From a virus, in IMG/VR virus record IMGVR_UViG_3300021394_000002, positions 1-49,389 of that record: a DNA stretch of 49,389 bases; one strand, 5' to 3'. Positions within the stretch are counted from its first letter, which is position 1. Each line of letters begins with the position of its first letter. The notes beneath the pieces were generated by a model. That model was not told the origin of the DNA, made no database searches, and worked only from the letters and a program-made list of their open reading frames with translations. This document shows, one piece after another, positions 8,420-49,389 of the stretch. The position numbers and the translations under genes are program-made.

Positions 8420-8424
8420 CCAGA

Positions 8425-8482
8425 GTGGGGCAGCCTGCCCCACTTATACGGAAAACCATATATGTGGGGCAGCCTGCCCCAC
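8425..8482. repeat. 58-bp module: two dispersed palindromes and linker (copies 3 and 4)
   Basis: Two perfect copies of the 19-bp palindrome (8425-8443 and 8464-8482) flank the 20-bp linker TTATACGGAAAACCATATAT, itself nearly self-complementary. The whole 58 bp recurs without a mismatch at 15953-16010. The second palindrome ends 15 nt before the next start codon. Confidence 0.95.
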
Positions 8483-8497
8483 CCCGACGAGAACCCC

Positions 8498-15945: not shown

Positions 15946-15952
15946 TCGGTGA

Positions 15953-16010
15953 GTGGGGCAGCCTGCCCCACTTATACGGAAAACCATATATGTGGGGCAG
16001 CCTGCCCCAC
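15953..16010. repeat. 58-bp module, second exact copy (palindromes 6 and 7)
   Basis: Identical over all 58 bases to 8425-8482: palindrome 15953-15971, the same 20-bp linker, palindrome 15992-16010. It begins 7 nt after the major capsid stop codon. Confidence 0.95.
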
Positions 16011-16025
16011 CCCCTGATTATGCAA

Positions 16026-37255: not shown

Positions 37256-37637
37256 CACCGTCAGGCAGCTCTGCCTTGCAGAAGATGCACAGCCCCGGCA
37301 CGGCAACCCTGCAAGCCTGGCACTCACTTCCGGCCCTTGTGTGGCGCGGCTTTGCGGCATAAATGAGGCTACCAAAGGGGAAAGGGAGAGAGGGGTAGAG
37401 TAGAGGCGGTGGCACAAAATCAAGAGATCGCCGCCGCTTAGGGTACACACATGCAAGATAGCCAAAGATAGGGGCGGTGCGGCGTCACGGTCAAAATCGG
37501 CAGGCAAAATATAAATACTATCTATGTACGATTGTCAGGGTTTCGGCATGAGCTTCACTCCATATCGTACACACACCAACGTACACACTGCAAGGATACC
37601 CCTATAAGGTACACACTACAATATTATGGGGCACACA

Positions 37638-37671
37638 GCACCCTAATAATAAAATTTTATTATTAGGGTGC
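37638..37671. other. Telomere resolution site (tel palindrome)
   Basis: A perfect 34-bp palindrome: GCACCCTAATAATAAAA followed by its exact reverse complement, centre between 37654 and 37655. It extends imperfectly outward for about 15 more bases per side. It lies 185 bp upstream of the protelomerase gene, the arrangement of telRL and telN in N15. Cutting and rejoining by protelomerase at the centre would give two covalently closed hairpin ends, converting the circular phage DNA into the linear plasmid prophage. Confidence 0.85.
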
Positions 37672-37741
37672 ATAGATGCCATATTAAGCATAGTGGTGTC
37701 ATGGGTGGGTGTGTACCCTCTGGTGTGTACGATAAGCCGCC

Positions 37742-37770
37742 TTGTCAGCCTTGTTTTTATATATTACAAT
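37742..37770 (+). promoter_or_regulatory. Promoter of the protelomerase gene
   Basis: TTGTCA (37742-37747), a 17-bp spacer and TACAAT (37765-37770). Start would be near 37777, on top of a GTGTGTAC-type repeat (37771-37778), with two more between it and the start codon. Binding of protelomerase or another protein to these repeats could repress the promoter. Confidence 0.62.
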
Positions 37771-37855
37771 CTGTGTACGTTGGTTTTGGTTAAAAACTTG
37801 CCGTGTGTACGCTGTATCCTATAATGTGTGTGTACTTAACCTGGAGATAAAAAAC

Positions 37856-40003
37856 ATGGGATCATCAAGGAAAGTGGACTTGCAACAGATAGCCGAAGAT
37901 TTGCACAAAGAGGTCATGCACATCGAGAGCCTGGACGTTGCCCAGTCAGAGAAAACCCGCCGCCACCAGCGGGCCGCCAAAAAGGTGCTGAACCTGCTGT
38001 ACCTGGACCGCCGCCGCTACAAGGGCAAGTTGAAAGAAAACCGGATCACCCTGAACACCTTTATCAGTTACCTGACCCGGCTTAGAAAAATGCTGGCTGA
38101 CTTGGGGCTTAGGCATCATCTGCTGGACAGAGAGATCGACCGCATGACCAAACGCTACCCCCGCCATGCCGAGCTGGCGGCGACCCTGGCCGACTTACCA
38201 CCGAAAGAGACATTCGAGGCCAAGCGGCTGGCTCAGGAACAGCTGGCCATCGAGGTTGAGGCCCAGGATGCTCTAAACCGGATCGCCTGGGATAAGCCGG
38301 ATGCACAGAAGAAGCTGAAAGCCATGATGACCCAGTACCCAACACTGAAAGCCTGGCTGGTGCCGCTACGCGACGAGGCGACCCGCGCCACCGCATTGCG
38401 GGATATCCACCTATATCTGGACGAGGCCGACGCCTTTAAGCGGGATCTGGTCGATTTGAAAGTGGACCATGAGGCTATTGTGGCGCTGAGAATACCGGCC
38501 GATCTCAAGGAAGACAGGGCCAAGGCGTCGGGCAAGGCGCTGATGAAAAAACAGCGGGCGCGGTTCCACCTGAACTATCCGGTATACATGGAAAAAGTAA
38601 TGTGGGCGCTGACCCAGCCCCACAACCAGAGGCCGGATGGCGGTTGTGACTGGGACTATAACCCGCTGGTGTTCGGCTTGTGTGCTGCCACCGGTCGCCG
38701 GCCGGTTGAGGTGCTGCTGACGGGCCATTTTGAGCGAGTAGACCGGGAGCGGTTGCGATTTTCTGGCCAGGCGAAAAAGCGCGGCAAGGCCGCCGATTCG
38801 TATGTAATTTACTCCCTGGTCGATACCAATACCGTGATGGCGGCATTCCAGGCGCTGCGGTCCCTGCCCTACACCGCCGAGCTGCACCAGCTGGAGGTTG
38901 AGAGTAAATATGATATTCGCACCACGGCGACCATGATCAACAATCGCCTGTCTGCGCCGCTCAATAGCCTGGCCCGCAAGGTGTTCGCGCCGGACGGCCG
39001 CCGGGTTTTCTATGACACACGGGCCGTGTACGCCGCTATCTGCGCCCAGCGATACCTGGAAACCGATCCGCGCTGGAAGTCGGACGACGGCAGCTGTAAC
39101 CGGTCGGCCTTTACCACCGAGCTATTGGGCCACGACGACCCCAACGCCCAGCTGGCGTATGAGTCGGTAAAACTGGACAGCTACCGGCCTTATCTGCCGA
39201 GCGCCATCAAACACAAAGCCAAGGATCGCTTGGCCGAGCTGGAAAAGCTGGATGATGAAATGCCGGATCTGGCCAAGGGCATGGCGGCGGTGGCTATCCA
39301 TGATTGGGTAAAGGACAGGGTGAAAGCCGATCCGTCTGTCACTATCACTCAGTCACTGATCAGCCGGGAGGCCGGCGGCAACCGCAACACCATCAAGCGT
39401 TATCTGGAGGTGGTCAGCGATGCCCTGGGCATTACCCGTGACGAAAAAACCGGGTGGGTAAAGGACGAGTTCGATCTGATATTGGAAAAGCCAACGGTTG
39501 ACTGGAAGCTCAAGCAGGCCGACGAGGACGAGCTGGACGCTGAACCCGAGGGCGAAGACGTAGACGAAGCCGAGGACGAAGCCGAGGACGAAGCCGAGGA
39601 CGAAGCCGAGGACGAAGCCGAGGCGACACAGGCAACCCCATTGCCCACCAGCACCCCGGAATGGAAGGGTAAACCGGCGTTTAAATTCCAACGGCTGGCC
39701 AACCAGCAATGGCAGGTGGGTATCCATGTGGGTTACGCCAGTCAGACCGTCACGGTGCAGGGGGCCAACCAGATGGCGGCAGGCCGCGCCGCCTGGCAGC
39801 AATGGCTGGCGCAATGGCAGCAGGTGCCGATCCACCATACCGCTGACGCGCTGAATGGCAAGAAGGCGCATAAAGTCAGCGCCGGTCTGCCCGATGGCCA
39901 GTATATCGAGGTGGTCCAGGCTGGCGCCGAGGCCGAGGCCAGGCGCACCCTGAGCAATGACATAAAGCGAGCGGCGGCCGTCTGGCAAAACCTGGGCAGC
40001 TGA
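37856..40003 (+). CDS. telN: Protelomerase (hairpin telomere resolvase), TelN/TelK family
   Basis: A 715-residue enzyme that makes the closed hairpin ends of the linear prophage by a tyrosine-recombinase-like cut and rejoin reaction. Catalytic positions fit those of N15 TelN/PhiKO2 TelK: Arg281 in CAATGRRPVEVLLTG, Lys307 in SGQAKKRGKAAD, Arg389 in YDTRAVYA, His426 in LLGHDDPN and nucleophile Tyr435 in AQLAYESVKL (His to Tyr spacing of 9 as in TelK). N-terminal helices (1-250) form the muzzle-type DNA clamp. The protein is about 80 residues longer than TelN/TelK; the extra C-terminal part has (DEAE)5 at 570-589 and a domain starting PAFKFQRLANQQWQVGIHVG. The start at 37856 follows CTGGAGATAAAAAAC. 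Confidence 0.95.
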   Translation: MGSSRKVDLQQIAEDLHKEVMHIESLDVAQSEKTRRHQRAAKKVLNLLYLDRRRYKGKLKENRITLNTFISYLTRLRKMLADLGLRHHLLDREIDRMTKRYPRHAELAATLADLPPKETFEAKRLAQEQLAIEVEAQDALNRIAWDKPDAQKKLKAMMTQYPTLKAWLVPLRDEATRATALRDIHLYLDEADAFKRDLVDLKVDHEAIVALRIPADLKEDRAKASGKALMKKQRARFHLNYPVYMEKVMWALTQPHNQRPDGGCDWDYNPLVFGLCAATGRRPVEVLLTGHFERVDRERLRFSGQAKKRGKAADSYVIYSLVDTNTVMAAFQALRSLPYTAELHQLEVESKYDIRTTATMINNRLSAPLNSLARKVFAPDGRRVFYDTRAVYAAICAQRYLETDPRWKSDDGSCNRSAFTTELLGHDDPNAQLAYESVKLDSYRPYLPSAIKHKAKDRLAELEKLDDEMPDLAKGMAAVAIHDWVKDRVKADPSVTITQSLISREAGGNRNTIKRYLEVVSDALGITRDEKTGWVKDEFDLILEKPTVDWKLKQADEDELDAEPEGEDVDEAEDEAEDEAEDEAEDEAEATQATPLPTSTPEWKGKPAFKFQRLANQQWQVGIHVGYASQTVTVQGANQMAAGRAAWQQWLAQWQQVPIHHTADALNGKKAHKVSAGLPDGQYIEVVQAGAEAEARRTLSNDIKRAAAVWQNLGS
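39563..39622 (+). repeat. 12-bp tandem repeat, five copies, in the protelomerase gene
   Basis: GACGAAGCCGAG is repeated five times head to tail without a mismatch, encoding (DEAE)5 in the acidic linker. Such a repeat can gain or lose units in frame. Confidence 0.95.
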
Positions 40004-40054: not shown

Positions 40055-43000
40055 TTACCCCAGTTTTAACGCCAGCTCAGGAGGTAGCCCCGCCCTGATC
40101 CTGGCGTCCCGAGATCCGAGCGCCAACAGCACACCGTTTTCATCCAGCAGGCCGTCACGAACGGCGGCTTTTTCCTCATAGGTAAGGGCTGAAAGCAGGT
40201 CATGGAGGGCGATTTTTAACCGTCTTCCGACTTTTCCGAGCAGGTAAGAAACCCCGGCAGGCCGCGCCACCACTGGGCTTGAGGGGCGATCCACGATCTT
40301 ATCTTTCTCTATAAGATCATCAGAAAAATCGTGGATCGTTTCGGACACCAGATCAGACCGTTCAGATCCGCCCGCCGCCAGCTTAATATCGTCATAGGCG
40401 CTCACACCTGAGTGGGTTCTTTTCTGGTGGATTTGGTGCATGTTTTCCCACGACTCAGGCTCAATGCTCCAGACCGTCGAACCGTCACCGGTGCGGCGTG
40501 ATTGGCGAGCTTTTACGGCGGTCAAATTCAGCTTTTCCATGATGGCCTTGAACATATCGGCCCCGGCCTTTTTGCCGCGCACGGGTGGGCACCAGGGCGC
40601 GTGAATGGTCAGGTAGTCGGCGTTGGCCTGCAGCAGCGCCAGACCGGCCTGTAAACCGCGCTGAGTGGCCACCCCTGCCCCGGTGTTATAATCCACCCCT
40701 ACCGCCGCCATATACTCCCGTAGCAGGCGCTGGCTGCGGCTCAGGTACTGCCGGGTAGATACCGGCACCCCATTGGTCGCCTCTAGGGCATCCAGGCTGC
40801 TGGCGCGTTCTGTGGGCATCTGCAGCAGCTCGAACCGCTTAACGTGGGCCAGGGCGCCGTCACGCAGCCAACAAACGGATTCTTCCGTCACCGGCTGCAG
40901 GAGCAGGTTTTCGATATTCCAGCGGTTCAGCTGCGCCCGCTCATCCTGGCTGATGTGCGAACTTTCCATTAACTGCTGACGCTGTTCGTCGGTGGCGGTG
41001 GGATTGGTCAGGTGGCGCTCGATATCTTCCTGTTTCAGTAATTCCCCAATGACCTTTTTCGCAACCTTGGCATTGGCGATCATTTCATCGGCGTGTTCCA
41101 GCGCCATTGGCTCCACCCGGTATTTATCGGCCATCAACTGCAACAGCATGGTGTTGGCAAAATCGTTGCGGGCGGCGTTTTCCTGGGTCAGCAGGTTAAT
41201 CCGTAACCGGTCGAATTCCAGATCATCAGAGCTGACGACCAACTGACCATCTTCATTCACACTGATGGATAATGCCTGATCGTGTTCGGCCAAGCCCGCC
41301 AGGGCTGCCCGCCACATGGCGGCTTCACTGGTTTCCCTGAAATTCACCGGGCTGGTCAATCCCAAAATAAAGCGGTTGGCGGTGCGGTCCCGGCGGATCA
41401 TCTGTACCGCATCGGATGGCGATATCACGCCACGAAACAGGCCGTAGTGAAGATCGAAATGCTGGGTCACAATGGACACCCCGGAGCTGATCGCCGGCGA
41501 GTAGATCACCCAGTCGTATTTTTCCACATGGCCATCGGGATCGGCGTTAAACGCCTGCACCTTGGCATCAAAGGCTTTCGAGTCTTGGGAGATAAACAGC
41601 CCTTTGGTGTGGGGATATTTTTCTTCCAGCAACCGCTGCAGCTTGGCGCCCTCATCGGCGCTATCGTCGGCCACCAGTACCTTTTTTCCCTGGCCCACTT
41701 GGGCCACCACATCATCGAATACCGCATTCAGATCGCCGTACAGTATCGTTTTGTCGGAAAAATCGGTGTCCAGCTCCACCACATGAATGGGGGTATCGTC
41801 CCCGCGCTCTGCACGGATGCGTTCGGCAAATTCGACCACCGAATCGTTGGCGTCGGCATCCACCATCAGCACCTGACTGGCGTTGACCGCGCACCCTTTC
41901 AGCCGGTTGTATACCGCCAGCGGCTGGGCCATGGTGCCGCCGTTGGTGATGGAGCGGAGCATTTGACTGGCCTCATCGAGCGCCAGCAGATCCAGGCGCT
42001 GCAGGATGCGGCCGAACTGGGGCTTGTTGATCGAGTTGATACAGCAGGCTAGCTTTTTCATGCCGGACAGGTGCGCCATTTCTGCGTCTTTGTAGTGCAG
42101 GATATCGAGGGCGTCACCGGGCATGGTTGCCAGCAGGGCCACATCGGCGGCGTCGTCTGGATTGATTTTCGACAGCTTGGCATGGCCATCCTCTACCAGC
42201 GTGACCCGGTGGACAAAGGAGGCCGCCCGCTCTGCCTGCCAGATCATCGGCCGCAACAGGTTTTTGGATTTACCCGAGGCCATGGGCGCCCGGACTATCA
42301 CCAACCCCTGCAGCTGGCGCACGAAATCATAAACCCCATCATCGATCACCGTTTTTTCGATTCGGTGGTAATGAATATGGGCGGGGCGCTGGGCCGGATC
42401 GGTGATACGGGCGCTGAACGAACGGAAAGCATGGGCTTCATGCAGCCGTTCGTCGAACCGCTTATTGGCCAGCCAGATCAGCTTTTGCCAGTCGATGGGC
42501 AGCCGGTGCTGTTCAACCACGGTTTTGACCGCTTCCATGATCTGGCGGCCGTTGCGAACAAAGGGGAAGCCGCGCATACCGGCGGCAATGGTGGCCATGG
42601 CCTGGCGCTGGGCGTCTTTGTGGCTGGCGGTGGCCAGTTTCAACAACCCCAGCTCGAACGGATCGCGGGGCAGCTCCAGCAGGTTGGTTTTGGCCCTGAG
42701 CTGATCGGCCACTTCCTGCAGGCCACGGCGGTGGCCCAGGGCCACATCATTGAAATCGGTGGGCTGGCTGACCGCATCGGCCTGGGTTACGTCCGGCAGT
42801 CGGTGCTTGATTTTCGGGTATTTTGCGGCCAGCGCATAGGCGGTGTTGACGCCTTTGTTGCCCTTGCCTTCCTGTTGTTTCCAGCAGTCGTTATCGGCCA
42901 GGTTCACCAGCTCCAGATCCGGGTGCTGGCTCAGGTATTTTTCGATCACTACTTCCAGCTGACCGGCATCCAGGCAGACGATCACGGCGCATTCGCCGTA

Positions 43001-43885
43001 TTGTTTGGTCAGGTACTGCTGATGGGCCAGAAAGGCGGTGGCGCCGGTGGCCCAGCCCTCACAGGTATAGATGCGGTCGGCGCTGGACAGGTCGCCTATG
43101 ATGGCATGGGCGCCGGTATCCACCTTGTTCAAACCAAAAGTGAAATCCTTATCGGTTTTTTCCCCGCTGGCGCGGGCGAACGGTTCGGCATAGATGCGCT
43201 GGATGCCGACAATTTCCGGCAGCTGCAGGAAATTGTCTAATTTTTCGGAAGAATACAACGGAATGGCCAGATAATGGCCATTCTTGTTGTGGCCGGTTTT
43301 GATCCCGGCACAGTGGGGCAGGCTGCCCCACACCTGTTTTTTGCGGAGGTACGGGTGATCCTGGGCGTCGGCGTCCTGGTGATAGCCGGCGATATCGGCC
43401 AGCCGCGCCTGTTCCCGGCGCTCCCGTTCGGCGGCAGCCTTGGCGGCGGCCTTGGCTTCCCGCGCTGCCCGGGCATCCATGCGCTGTTGTTGCTTCTGGC
43501 GCCAGCTATCATCTGCGACAAAGCCGCCACCTTCCAGCTCATAGAGCCGCTTGAGGTCTTCATAGCCGTTCAGCACGAATTCGGCGGTGCCTTCACCCCG
43601 GCGGCTGATGGTGATCACCGGGTACTCAATGCCGTTGCGGGCCGTCTTGAAGTCGGCCCGGACACCGGCGGTTTTTTCACCCTTGCGGGTGAAATAGCGG
43701 TTATGGTTCAGGCCGATGCTGGCGCCGTCCCATGCCAGCCGCTTATCCACGGCGTCCCAATTTATGCCGTGCTGAGCCGCTTCCTGGGCAAAATCGGCAT
43801 AGAGGCGGTCATACAGGTGGCGACCGGAGCCACCCAGCGCCTGGTAGAAGTCTTGCAGTGTTCGATTGTTGTTATTTTTCGGCAT
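40055..43885 (-). CDS. repA: RepA-type replication protein (TOPRIM primase-helicase)
   Basis: A 1276-residue protein like N15 RepA (about 1320), which alone supports replication of the linear plasmid. Residues about 265-350 are a TOPRIM domain (CEGWATGATAF with Glu276, then VIVCLDAGQLE and LADNDCWKQQ). Residues about 525-860 are a helicase core: Walker A APMASGKSK (Lys539), Walker B LALDEASQM (Asp637-Glu638) and an arginine-rich motif AVQMIRRDRTANR. The start at 43885 follows AGAGGCCAAA and is preferred to an upstream ATG at 43927. In N15 the replication origin lies inside repA; that may hold here. A dispersed palindrome lies inside the gene. Confidence 0.93.
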   Translation of the reverse strand: MPKNNNNRTLQDFYQALGGSGRHLYDRLYADFAQEAAQHGINWDAVDKRLAWDGASIGLNHNRYFTRKGEKTAGVRADFKTARNGIEYPVITISRRGEGTAEFVLNGYEDLKRLYELEGGGFVADDSWRQKQQQRMDARAAREAKAAAKAAAERERREQARLADIAGYHQDADAQDHPYLRKKQVWGSLPHCAGIKTGHNKNGHYLAIPLYSSEKLDNFLQLPEIVGIQRIYAEPFARASGEKTDKDFTFGLNKVDTGAHAIIGDLSSADRIYTCEGWATGATAFLAHQQYLTKQYGECAVIVCLDAGQLEVVIEKYLSQHPDLELVNLADNDCWKQQEGKGNKGVNTAYALAAKYPKIKHRLPDVTQADAVSQPTDFNDVALGHRRGLQEVADQLRAKTNLLELPRDPFELGLLKLATASHKDAQRQAMATIAAGMRGFPFVRNGRQIMEAVKTVVEQHRLPIDWQKLIWLANKRFDERLHEAHAFRSFSARITDPAQRPAHIHYHRIEKTVIDDGVYDFVRQLQGLVIVRAPMASGKSKNLLRPMIWQAERAASFVHRVTLVEDGHAKLSKINPDDAADVALLATMPGDALDILHYKDAEMAHLSGMKKLACCINSINKPQFGRILQRLDLLALDEASQMLRSITNGGTMAQPLAVYNRLKGCAVNASQVLMVDADANDSVVEFAERIRAERGDDTPIHVVELDTDFSDKTILYGDLNAVFDDVVAQVGQGKKVLVADDSADEGAKLQRLLEEKYPHTKGLFISQDSKAFDAKVQAFNADPDGHVEKYDWVIYSPAISSGVSIVTQHFDLHYGLFRGVISPSDAVQMIRRDRTANRFILGLTSPVNFRETSEAAMWRAALAGLAEHDQALSISVNEDGQLVVSSDDLEFDRLRINLLTQENAARNDFANTMLLQLMADKYRVEPMALEHADEMIANAKVAKKVIGELLKQEDIERHLTNPTATDEQRQQLMESSHISQDERAQLNRWNIENLLLQPVTEESVCWLRDGALAHVKRFELLQMPTERASSLDALEATNGVPVSTRQYLSRSQRLLREYMAAVGVDYNTGAGVATQRGLQAGLALLQANADYLTIHAPWCPPVRGKKAGADMFKAIMEKLNLTAVKARQSRRTGDGSTVWSIEPESWENMHQIHQKRTHSGVSAYDDIKLAAGGSERSDLVSETIHDFSDDLIEKDKIVDRPSSPVVARPAGVSYLLGKVGRRLKIALHDLLSALTYEEKAAVRDGLLDENGVLLALGSRDARIRAGLPPELALKLG
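43313..43331. repeat. Dispersed palindrome, copy 13 (inside repA, centre G)
   Basis: GTGGGGCAGGCTGCCCCAC, a perfect palindrome within the repA coding sequence, read there as VWGSLPHC on the minus strand. Keeping a perfect palindrome inside a conserved gene suggests selection for the DNA site. Confidence 0.9.
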
Positions 43886-43943
43886 TTTGGCCTCTATTTT
43901 TGTTATCAGAGGGCCATCAATAATCAAATTTGCATATTCAAGC

Positions 43944-43972
43944 TTGAGTTAACCGGCGGGAGATCTTAAAAT
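43944..43972 (+). promoter_or_regulatory. Plus-strand promoter antisense to the repA leader
   Basis: TTGAGT (43944-43949), a 17-bp spacer and TAAAAT (43967-43972) make a strong sigma70-like promoter pointing away from repA. The -35 box overlaps the palindrome TCAAGCTTGA (43938-43947), and AAATTTGCATAT just upstream matches half of the palindrome at 155-172. Start would be near 43979. Confidence 0.6.
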
Positions 43973-43985
43973 TACACCGTATCGG

Positions 43986-44089
43986 TTTAGATGGCCGCAG
44001 CGATTTAGATGGCTTTATTTAGATAGCTGTTTCGGTTCAGATGGCTCAGATGGCCGTACATTGCATCGGTTTATGCTTTTTTAGATGGC
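43986..44089. repeat. Six TTTAGATGGC-like direct repeats upstream of repA
   Basis: TTTAGATGGC starts at 43986, 44004 and 44080; TTTAGATAGC at 44018; TTCAGATGGC at 44036; CTCAGATGGC at 44045. Spacings are 18, 14, 18, 9 and 35 bp. They lie 100-200 bp before the repA start codon and could be RepA-binding iterons, operators, or repeated elements of the antisense RNA. Confidence 0.75.
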
Positions 44090-44230
44090 CTCTATTTAGC
44101 TTGAACTGGTACGCGCTTTGATCATTGACGGCCTCCCTCTGCGTTAGTGGTGGTGGTTGTTTTGCAAAGTCTGCCTGGTTAGCAGATTCTGCGCCGATTG
44201 CACTTTGACCCGGCCAGGTCGCCGTGCTTT

Positions 44231-44257
44231 TGGTTTAAATGGTTTAAATGGTTTAAA
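44231..44257. repeat. Three tandem copies of TGGTTTAAA
   Basis: The 9-bp unit occurs at 44231, 44240 and 44249 without mismatch, just before the terminator at 44269. Its role is unknown; AT-rich tandem repeats near a replication gene can ease strand opening. Confidence 0.8.
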
Positions 44258-44268
44258 AAACGTCAATT

Positions 44269-44292
44269 GCCCCGGTTTTGCCGGGGCTTTTT
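44269..44292 (+). terminator. Rho-independent terminator, plus strand
   Basis: Stem GCCCCGG/CCGGGGC with a 5-base loop and T5 on the plus strand; the minus strand has no T run. No plus-strand protein gene precedes it, which implies a non-coding transcript. Confidence 0.85.
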
Positions 44293-44393
44293 CTTGCCTG
44301 CCGTTCGGGTTTTCACCCGGGCAGGGAGTGCCGGCCGTTGGGATAAATACTAACCCAACAGATGCCTGCTTTCCAATAATGAAGGTCGGGGAT

Positions 44394-45005
44394 TTACACG
44401 GCTGCTTCATTTATATACTGAATCTTGCTGGCTACCACCGATCCTACCACCTGCCCCACCAACTCAAATTCACTGCGCTGGCGCATTTCACGCTCCCGGG
44501 TGACAACGTTTTCCAGCTGCAGCATGTTGTTATTGCAGGCCAGCAACCGGTAGTAGGTAGCCTGGCCATTATTTACCGTTACCAGGTCGCAACCATGCTG
44601 AATCGGATCTTCTGTGTCGATCACGATGGCGTCACCCAGGCGGATAGGGTATTCGGTCGATGTAACCAATACATAATGGTGGCTTTCCTGGTGATACAGC
44701 GGTTGCACCACTACCCGACCATCAATCTGGGGGCCAAGGACGGCCACCGGGCTTACCCACCCGGGCCTAACCCCGGTGCCGGTGATCGGGTTTATTCCTA
44801 CGCCGTCAATCAGCCAGTCGGCGCTGCAGCCCAGTACCTTGCAGTAACGGCTGATGTAGTTTGACTGGCACCCTTTCTGGATATCATTTTCGATCTTTGA
44901 AATTAGCCCCATCGAGCAGTCGGCTAACTGACCTAGCTGACTGACCGTTAACCCACGGTGATACCGGAGCTGCCGCAACCGTTGGCCCAGTGATAATTTT
45001 GGCAT
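44394..45005 (-). CDS. CI-like prophage repressor
   Basis: A 203-residue protein. Residues about 17-40 are an HTH (GLTVSQLGQLADCSMGLISK) and residues about 85-200 a LexA/CI-like S24 fold. The Ser of the catalytic pair is present (Ser116 in TSTEYPIRLGDAIVID), but the Lys expected in the later VKRL-type motif is Tyr (QATYYRLL, Tyr151/152), and no Ala-Gly or Cys-Gly cleavage site is seen in the linker. Self-cleavage is therefore unlikely. The start 45005 follows AGGATTTATT; a TTG at 45020 is an alternative. It should maintain lysogeny by binding operators at 45041-45069. Confidence 0.88.
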   Translation of the reverse strand: MPKLSLGQRLRQLRYHRGLTVSQLGQLADCSMGLISKIENDIQKGCQSNYISRYCKVLGCSADWLIDGVGINPITGTGVRPGWVSPVAVLGPQIDGRVVVQPLYHQESHHYVLVTSTEYPIRLGDAIVIDTEDPIQHGCDLVTVNNGQATYYRLLACNNNMLQLENVVTREREMRQRSEFELVGQVVGSVVASKIQYINEAAV

Positions 45006-48259: not shown

Positions 48260-49321
48260 ATGAGCCAAAAAAGCCACCGTGCCCGGAGCTACCTGCAGAA
48301 ATACAGCGGTGAAGCCGGCGCCCTTATTTATCCACTTATTAACGGAACCCACCAGATAGGGAAAGCAAACTGGCCAGCATTTGTTTATGTTCCATCTGCC
48401 ATCATTCCCCCGATGTTGGGGCAGACCATGCCGCCCGATATTATTGAGGGACTGCAGGAGCTGAATAGTATTGAGCGAACCTTGATCATGGAAACCATGC
48501 TGACCATGGCCACCTGGCGCATAACTCAGGGTATTTACCGCTTTGATCCTGCCGTGTACCAGGCGGTAATAGACACCCCGCTCAATGGTGATATCCCCGC
48601 CAGCATCCTGACCCGCCTACCAGAGTGGTGCGTTTACGTCGAAACGCCGGGCCTAATCACCATAGGAAAACACGGTGAACCCATAGCCATTTACGGCGCC
48701 TGGGCTAGACTGTCCAGCGGCGGCCAGACCAGCGATTCGGACCTGATTGATTTGGTGCTAGGTTTGGATACCGATGCCGAGCGTGACGGCGGCGCGATCT
48801 CCCATCAGTTGATCCCGCTGCAGGGCACCCTAGAGCAATCCATTCGCCAGCTACCCAGCAGCAATATTGACGAGAAAAATAAAGAGCGGGCGTATCAGGA
48901 AATTCTGAAACATACCCGGCCGATACTCAACCTGTTGATCTATTTGTGTAACACCACGGACTACCAGGGCGACCGGCAACCAGCCAACCCCCAACCGAAG
49001 CGAACCCGCCGCCATGGCGAAAAACTGTTTCCGGCCAACACCACCACCACCTGGAATGTAGGGGTCAGAATGGGGTCAGCCCTACGCCGGGCTTATGCCA
49101 GTGAATCAACACCCAGCACCAGCGAACCGACCGGCCGCCATGTGCGGCCGCACATCAGACGCGCCCACTGGCATACATTCCTGTCCGGGCCACGCCTGGA
49201 TGACGAAGGGCAGGCAATACCAGCAGATCAGCGAAAACAAAGTGTGCGCTGGATGCCGCCGATTCCGGTTAACCTGGACGAGCCCGAGGAATTACCGGCC
49301 ACCATTCATCCAGTAAAATGA
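48260..49321 (+). CDS. acrVA2: AcrVA2-family anti-CRISPR homologue
   Basis: A 353-residue protein closely matching AcrVA2 of Moraxella phages (about 322 residues) in its hallmark segments: TWRITQGIYRFD (85-96), LTRLPEWCVYVE (117-128; AcrVA2 has LPDWCVYVD), DLVLGLDTD (164-172) and the C-terminal RPHIRRAHWHTFLSG (296-310; AcrVA2 RPHIRRGHWHGYWQG) followed by VRWMPPIPVN. AcrVA2 blocks type V-A CRISPR by acting on Cas12a production, binding the nascent N-terminus and causing loss of its mRNA. Homologues are widespread on mobile elements, also where Cas12a is not known, so the target here is unproven. The ribosome site CTGGAGTACAAC precedes ATG. Confidence 0.85.
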   Translation: MSQKSHRARSYLQKYSGEAGALIYPLINGTHQIGKANWPAFVYVPSAIIPPMLGQTMPPDIIEGLQELNSIERTLIMETMLTMATWRITQGIYRFDPAVYQAVIDTPLNGDIPASILTRLPEWCVYVETPGLITIGKHGEPIAIYGAWARLSSGGQTSDSDLIDLVLGLDTDAERDGGAISHQLIPLQGTLEQSIRQLPSSNIDEKNKERAYQEILKHTRPILNLLIYLCNTTDYQGDRQPANPQPKRTRRHGEKLFPANTTTTWNVGVRMGSALRRAYASESTPSTSEPTGRHVRPHIRRAHWHTFLSGPRLDDEGQAIPADQRKQSVRWMPPIPVNLDEPEELPATIHPVK

Positions 49322-49322
49322 G

Positions 49323-49389
49323 ATTGAATTCATAAATTAAATTGGATTCATAAATCAAATTGGTTTCATAAATCAAATTGGATTCAAAA
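49323..49389. repeat. 18-bp tandem repeat at the contig end
   Basis: The unit ATTGGATTCATAAATCAA occurs 3.7 times: 49323-49340 (two changes), 49341-49358 (reference), 49359-49376 (one change) and a partial 49377-49389. It begins just after the AcrVA2 homologue and runs into the contig end, so the true array may be longer; assembly probably stopped here. Its function could be iteron-like, regulatory or structural. Confidence 0.9.

Follow-up and report, generated by a model that had tools for sequence, protein, structure and literature searches.

Short antisense RNAs with their own promoter and terminator lie opposite the rep leaders of several plasmids: CopA of R1/IncFII, Inc RNA of IncI-alpha/IncB and RNAI of pSK41 are of this kind, and all form long stem-loops. 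In the telomere phages N15 and phiKO2, control of the replication gene repA has been ascribed to a protein: CB represses repA via the OL operators, upstream of repA, and thereby limits prophage copy number (PMC4997575). Both phages also carry an antisense-type RNA, C4 (immA), at a separate locus about 5.5 kb from repA. Another small RNA is found in the related linear plasmid phage VP882, whose VpdS is reported to be an Hfq-bound, trans-acting sRNA of about 50 nt (PMC12197685). Here we describe a locus opposite the repA leader of a further phage of this type, which an earlier note had proposed to encode an antisense RNA.

The window encodes a telomere phage

The DNA analysed (the window, an IMG/VR virus record of 49,389 bases) encodes a protelomerase of the TelN/TelK type with Pfam TelK domains (37742–40003, plus strand; the longest open reading frame was taken and its start is approximate), the replication protein RepA (1276 aa; 40055–43885, minus strand, start codon at 43885; phrog_4913, E 4e-259), a CI-like prophage repressor of the CI/CB type (44394–45005, minus strand) and a Q-like antiterminator. 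Given this gene complement, the sequence identifies the window as a telomere phage of the N15/VP882 type, which in bacteria would be a linear plasmid. Its RepA is about 30–34% identical to those of N15, KO2, PY54, VP882 and phiHAP-1.

Several further features of the window were recorded. Directly upstream of telN is a telRL-like region (37563–37734) with the palindrome GCACCCTAATAATAAAATTTTATTATTAGGGTGC and inverted GTACACAC repeats on both flanks. Positions 1–13 (GCTCTTCCGATCT) match the end of an Illumina adapter, so the contig probably does not begin at a natural end; the right end carries direct repeats of about 18 bp (49316–49387). The palindrome GGGGCAGSCTGCCCC occurs in fifteen copies, one with two changes, at 1235, 6239, 8427, 8466, 8675, 15955, 15994, 16028, 32598, 34576, 37239, 40010, 43315, 47919 and 48231; these are possibly distributed centromere sites or terminators. 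An exact 63-nt direct repeat (8423–8485 and 15951–16013) contains two of these GGGGCAG palindromes.

A predicted antisense RNA opposite the repA leader

Sequence analysis makes it very probable that the virus transcribes a small RNA antisense to the beginning of repA. The predicted RNA (43979–44292, plus strand) is about 314 nt long, close to the 310 nt proposed earlier, and is fully complementary to the repA leader. It would start about 94 nt ahead of the repA start codon, from the promoter TTGAGT-17-TAAAAT (43944–43972, plus strand), and end at the intrinsic terminator GCCCCGG-TTTT-GCCGGGGC followed by TTTTT (44269–44292, plus strand), which, as the earlier note had it, is strong; it is predicted to function in the plus direction only. 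The unit runs opposite to repA and the repressor gene, both of which are on the minus strand, and agrees with the description of a region free of protein genes: no plus-strand open reading frame with a recognisable Shine-Dalgarno sequence lies within 43979–44292, and the longer plus-strand frames at this position read through the terminator.

The promoter is present as described, with 9 of 12 matches, but its quality alone says little. Five sites of such quality occur in the 4.5-kb region against 3.4 expected from shuffling, and in a sigma-70 matrix scan of the window leader the antisense promoter has a p of about 0.10. By itself the window promoter is thus within chance; what raises the observation above chance is that relatives across the phage family have promoter and terminator at matching positions. 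A 31-nt segment overlapping the antisense -35 box (43920–43950) has a 26/31 copy on the opposite strand near the left end (142–172), and the two could possibly be a shared regulator site.

The six repeats of the earlier note are likewise real in the window. They are TTTAGATGGC-type repeats (GGCCATCTAAA in the repA sense; 43986–44089, plus strand), three exact and three with 1–2 mismatches, located apically in the fold of the leader, and only two further sites with at most one mismatch occur elsewhere in the 49 kb. No repeats of this type were seen in the relatives' leaders inspected, those of the closest relatives included.

The best repA-direction promoter candidate, TTGGAA-18-TAGTAT (44347–44376, minus strand), overlaps a palindrome (44337–44359). 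It lies upstream of the antisense terminator, so that the repA mRNA would hold the entire antisense target. The candidate repressor operator CAAACYGTTTG was considered for the repA leader and rejected, its sole copies (45041 and 45059) being close to the repressor promoter. A possible leader peptide, MIKARTSSS (44096–44125, minus strand; Shine-Dalgarno GAGGGAGG), is encoded within the 5′ arm of the leader stem and might allow coupling in the style of IncI-alpha/IncFII. Apart from an open reading frame beside the terminator of L008, no such 9-codon frame with a Shine-Dalgarno sequence was seen in the closest relatives, and we rejected the peptide as a family feature.

By sequence, the locus has the layout of a counter-transcribed RNA of the known kind: a position opposite a rep leader, its own promoter, its own Rho-independent terminator and a structured target leader. 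Like CopA, Inc RNA and RNAI, it has long stem-loops and a predicted effect on rep translation. Unlike them, it has its promoter within the second arm of the target stem, so that the RNA pairs with one arm only, and it belongs to a telomere phage; in the related N15 and KO2, CB additionally represses repA. We found no sequence or Rfam relationship between these RNAs and the 314-nt RNA. At the antisense locus Rfam gave no match at gathering or relaxed thresholds, C4 included, and DNA comparison with phage records returned only chance terminator-like matches; C4 was not detected in the window. CB/OL control differs in that a protein and DNA operators act on the repA promoter, which precedes the antisense unit.

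The layout recurs across relatives

A single RepA query and a search with the exact leader motif found no close relatives of the window, and a RepA profile search yielded 80 IMG/VR loci and a further 79 from GTDB genomes. Of 59 leaders, 54 carry a strong terminator that points away from repA and is no more than 500 nt from the RepA match; control windows taken from these loci gave a rate of 11%. In four others (L014, L015, L024 and L028) such hairpins are weaker, being seen by eye below the scan threshold, and in L066 such a terminator is located further upstream because the start codon precedes the RepA match.

In the sigma-70 matrix scan, 13 of the 14 sequence groups have their best antisense promoter where its start would fall between -65 and -112 relative to repA, against 2.6 expected (P about 2e-9, for an interval of -115 to -60 set after a first look). 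Only L011 departs from this, and there a site at -93 shares the top score. Nine aligned leaders show 98% conservation of the antisense -10 box, compared with 61% for the spacer, and this conservation falls outside the helices. The -35 box of the A2 group sits within a conserved stem, and its conservation alone is therefore no evidence for a promoter. The same combination of promoter and hairpin is present in N15, KO2, PY54, VP882 and phiHAP-1, with the predicted VP882 RNA running from 32857 to about 32957 and the N15 start predicted at about 33933. Where relatives carry the leader motif a second time, no consistent pattern emerged.

Terminators, promoter position and the folding described below thus all support the earlier proposal of an antisense RNA opposite the repA leader, and antisense transcription here is strongly supported, on sequence grounds, as a feature of the whole phage family.

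Among the IMG/VR loci, three pairs (L039/L046, L038/L080 and L078/L079) come from contigs that carry repA twice in opposite orientations; these may be inverted dimers joined at a telomere, or may reflect assembly. One telomere-phage repA locus, L091, is almost like the Halomonas ones and is filed as Spirulina subsalsa; it is possibly a contaminant contig.

The repA leader is folded and may mask the ribosome site

In the repA sense the window leader is more stable than its shuffles (z -4.1), as are the leaders of all 37 relatives' loci tested (mean z -4.6). The predicted fold is dominated by a long stem on the minus strand, in which the core of the 5′ arm (44140–44117) pairs with that of the 3′ arm (43928–43906). 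Weaker pairing extends the arms to 44097 and 43950, respectively, and the arms with their extensions reach a predicted -46 kcal/mol. The antisense RNA covers the 5′ arm; the core of the 3′ arm lies outside it.

A covariation search in relatives, suggested in the earlier note, gave a clear signal in one nine-member group, while the window's own leader is without a sufficiently close relative. In that group 14 pairs are altered on both sides, with 0–1 of 500 shuffles matching the measures, and the alignment holds 30 covarying cells compared with 12.7 in shuffles, a signal that is lost on sliding the partners; the structure was drawn from the same alignment, which is somewhat in its favour.

The base of the second arm, GGCCCUCU, has a predicted alternative partner in AGAGGCC, which spans the repA Shine-Dalgarno sequence AGAGG (43891–43895, minus strand). 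The resulting hairpin (43889–43914, minus strand; local fold -9.5 kcal/mol) would mask that site. With the long stem paired, the ribosome site of the window is predicted to be partly open, and deleting the antisense-covered part lowers the computed accessibility of the Shine-Dalgarno sequence from 0.44 to 0.00. The native upstream sequence leaves the site more open than any of 20 shuffled versions, both in the window and in its seven closest relatives (L008–L013 and L088), which fall into four further groups, the change in L010 being small (0.49 to 0.42). No such switch is predicted in N15/KO2-like leaders, in several Pseudomonas/Halomonas-type groups or in other groups tested. Since several groups show no change or the opposite one, we rejected a universal switch and do not claim this exact form family-wide; a switch operating on one arm is the specific model predicted for the window's own clade.

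Proposed function and alternative explanations

The same layout in every relative examined points to an RNA brake on copy number, and the sequences make a role in replication control well motivated. We think it probable that the counter-transcribed RNA limits RepA synthesis and thereby sets prophage copy number. From the promoter, terminator, leader fold and family-wide conservation seen in the sequences, we infer that the RNA is transcribed, represses RepA and so controls copy number, repression of RepA being its likely function. In the proposed mechanism, transcription of the RNA would cross the leader in the direction leading from repA to the antisense terminator, and the product would be complementary to the first arm of the long fold and to its apical portion, the second arm lying outside this match. 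In its absence, the two arms would pair and leave the repA ribosome site partly accessible; once bound, it would release the second arm to pair with the Shine-Dalgarno sequence, reducing repA translation. A higher prophage copy number would give more antisense RNA, and hence feedback.

A strong fold in the repA sense that can by itself mask or open the ribosome site could also mean that the leader controls translation or stability of repA mRNA in cis, with antisense transcription weak or incidental. We regard this as unlikely, because it leaves unexplained both the terminator pointing away from repA in essentially every relative and the conservation of the antisense -10 box outside the helices. 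It is quite unlikely that repA is instead stopped by transcription attenuation of the pT181 type or by collision of converging polymerases. Hairpins in some relatives could terminate repA-direction transcripts too, but where seen they mostly precede the antisense target instead of separating it from repA. No repA-direction terminator was found in the window between the target and repA, and minus-strand terminators occur only inside repA.

The cluster of six repeats beside the rep gene might suggest iterons bound by RepA and hence part of a replication origin. Their spacing is irregular (18, 14, 18, 9 and 35 nt), they were not seen in the leaders of the closest relatives, and the origin of N15-type phages is placed inside repA, which together make this reading highly improbable. 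Action in trans on other targets, such as phage immunity or host genes, has precedents in the C4 antisense RNA of N15 and KO2, at another locus, and in VpdS of VP882, which is reported to act in trans (PMC12197685). We consider it very unlikely here, as complementarity to the repA leader is full throughout the family, the repeat has no other good match in the window and Rfam gives no match at the locus. An immunity role, which the earlier note had offered beside replication control, is not specifically supported, because the RNA overlaps the repA leader only and stops short of the repressor gene.

The element is thus probably a counter-transcribed RNA of a known kind in a phage family for which we found no report of one. 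The earlier note knew of no description in this phage type, and the searchable literature likewise held no account of a repA-leader antisense RNA in these phages, although one may exist beyond it. More tentatively, and with rather less confidence than even, telomere phages as a family might use an undescribed antisense switch: the RNA would bind one arm of the stem, freeing the other to close the ribosome site, and the switch would act beside CB or, where CB operators are lacking, in its place to set the copy number of the linear prophage.

In the literature accessible, copy-number control of N15-type linear prophages has so far meant repression of repA by CB. If the proposal for the counter-transcribed RNA holds, a family-wide antisense RNA would add a second, RNA-based layer to that control. 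It would also predict incompatibility between related prophages and be relevant to N15-based linear vectors.
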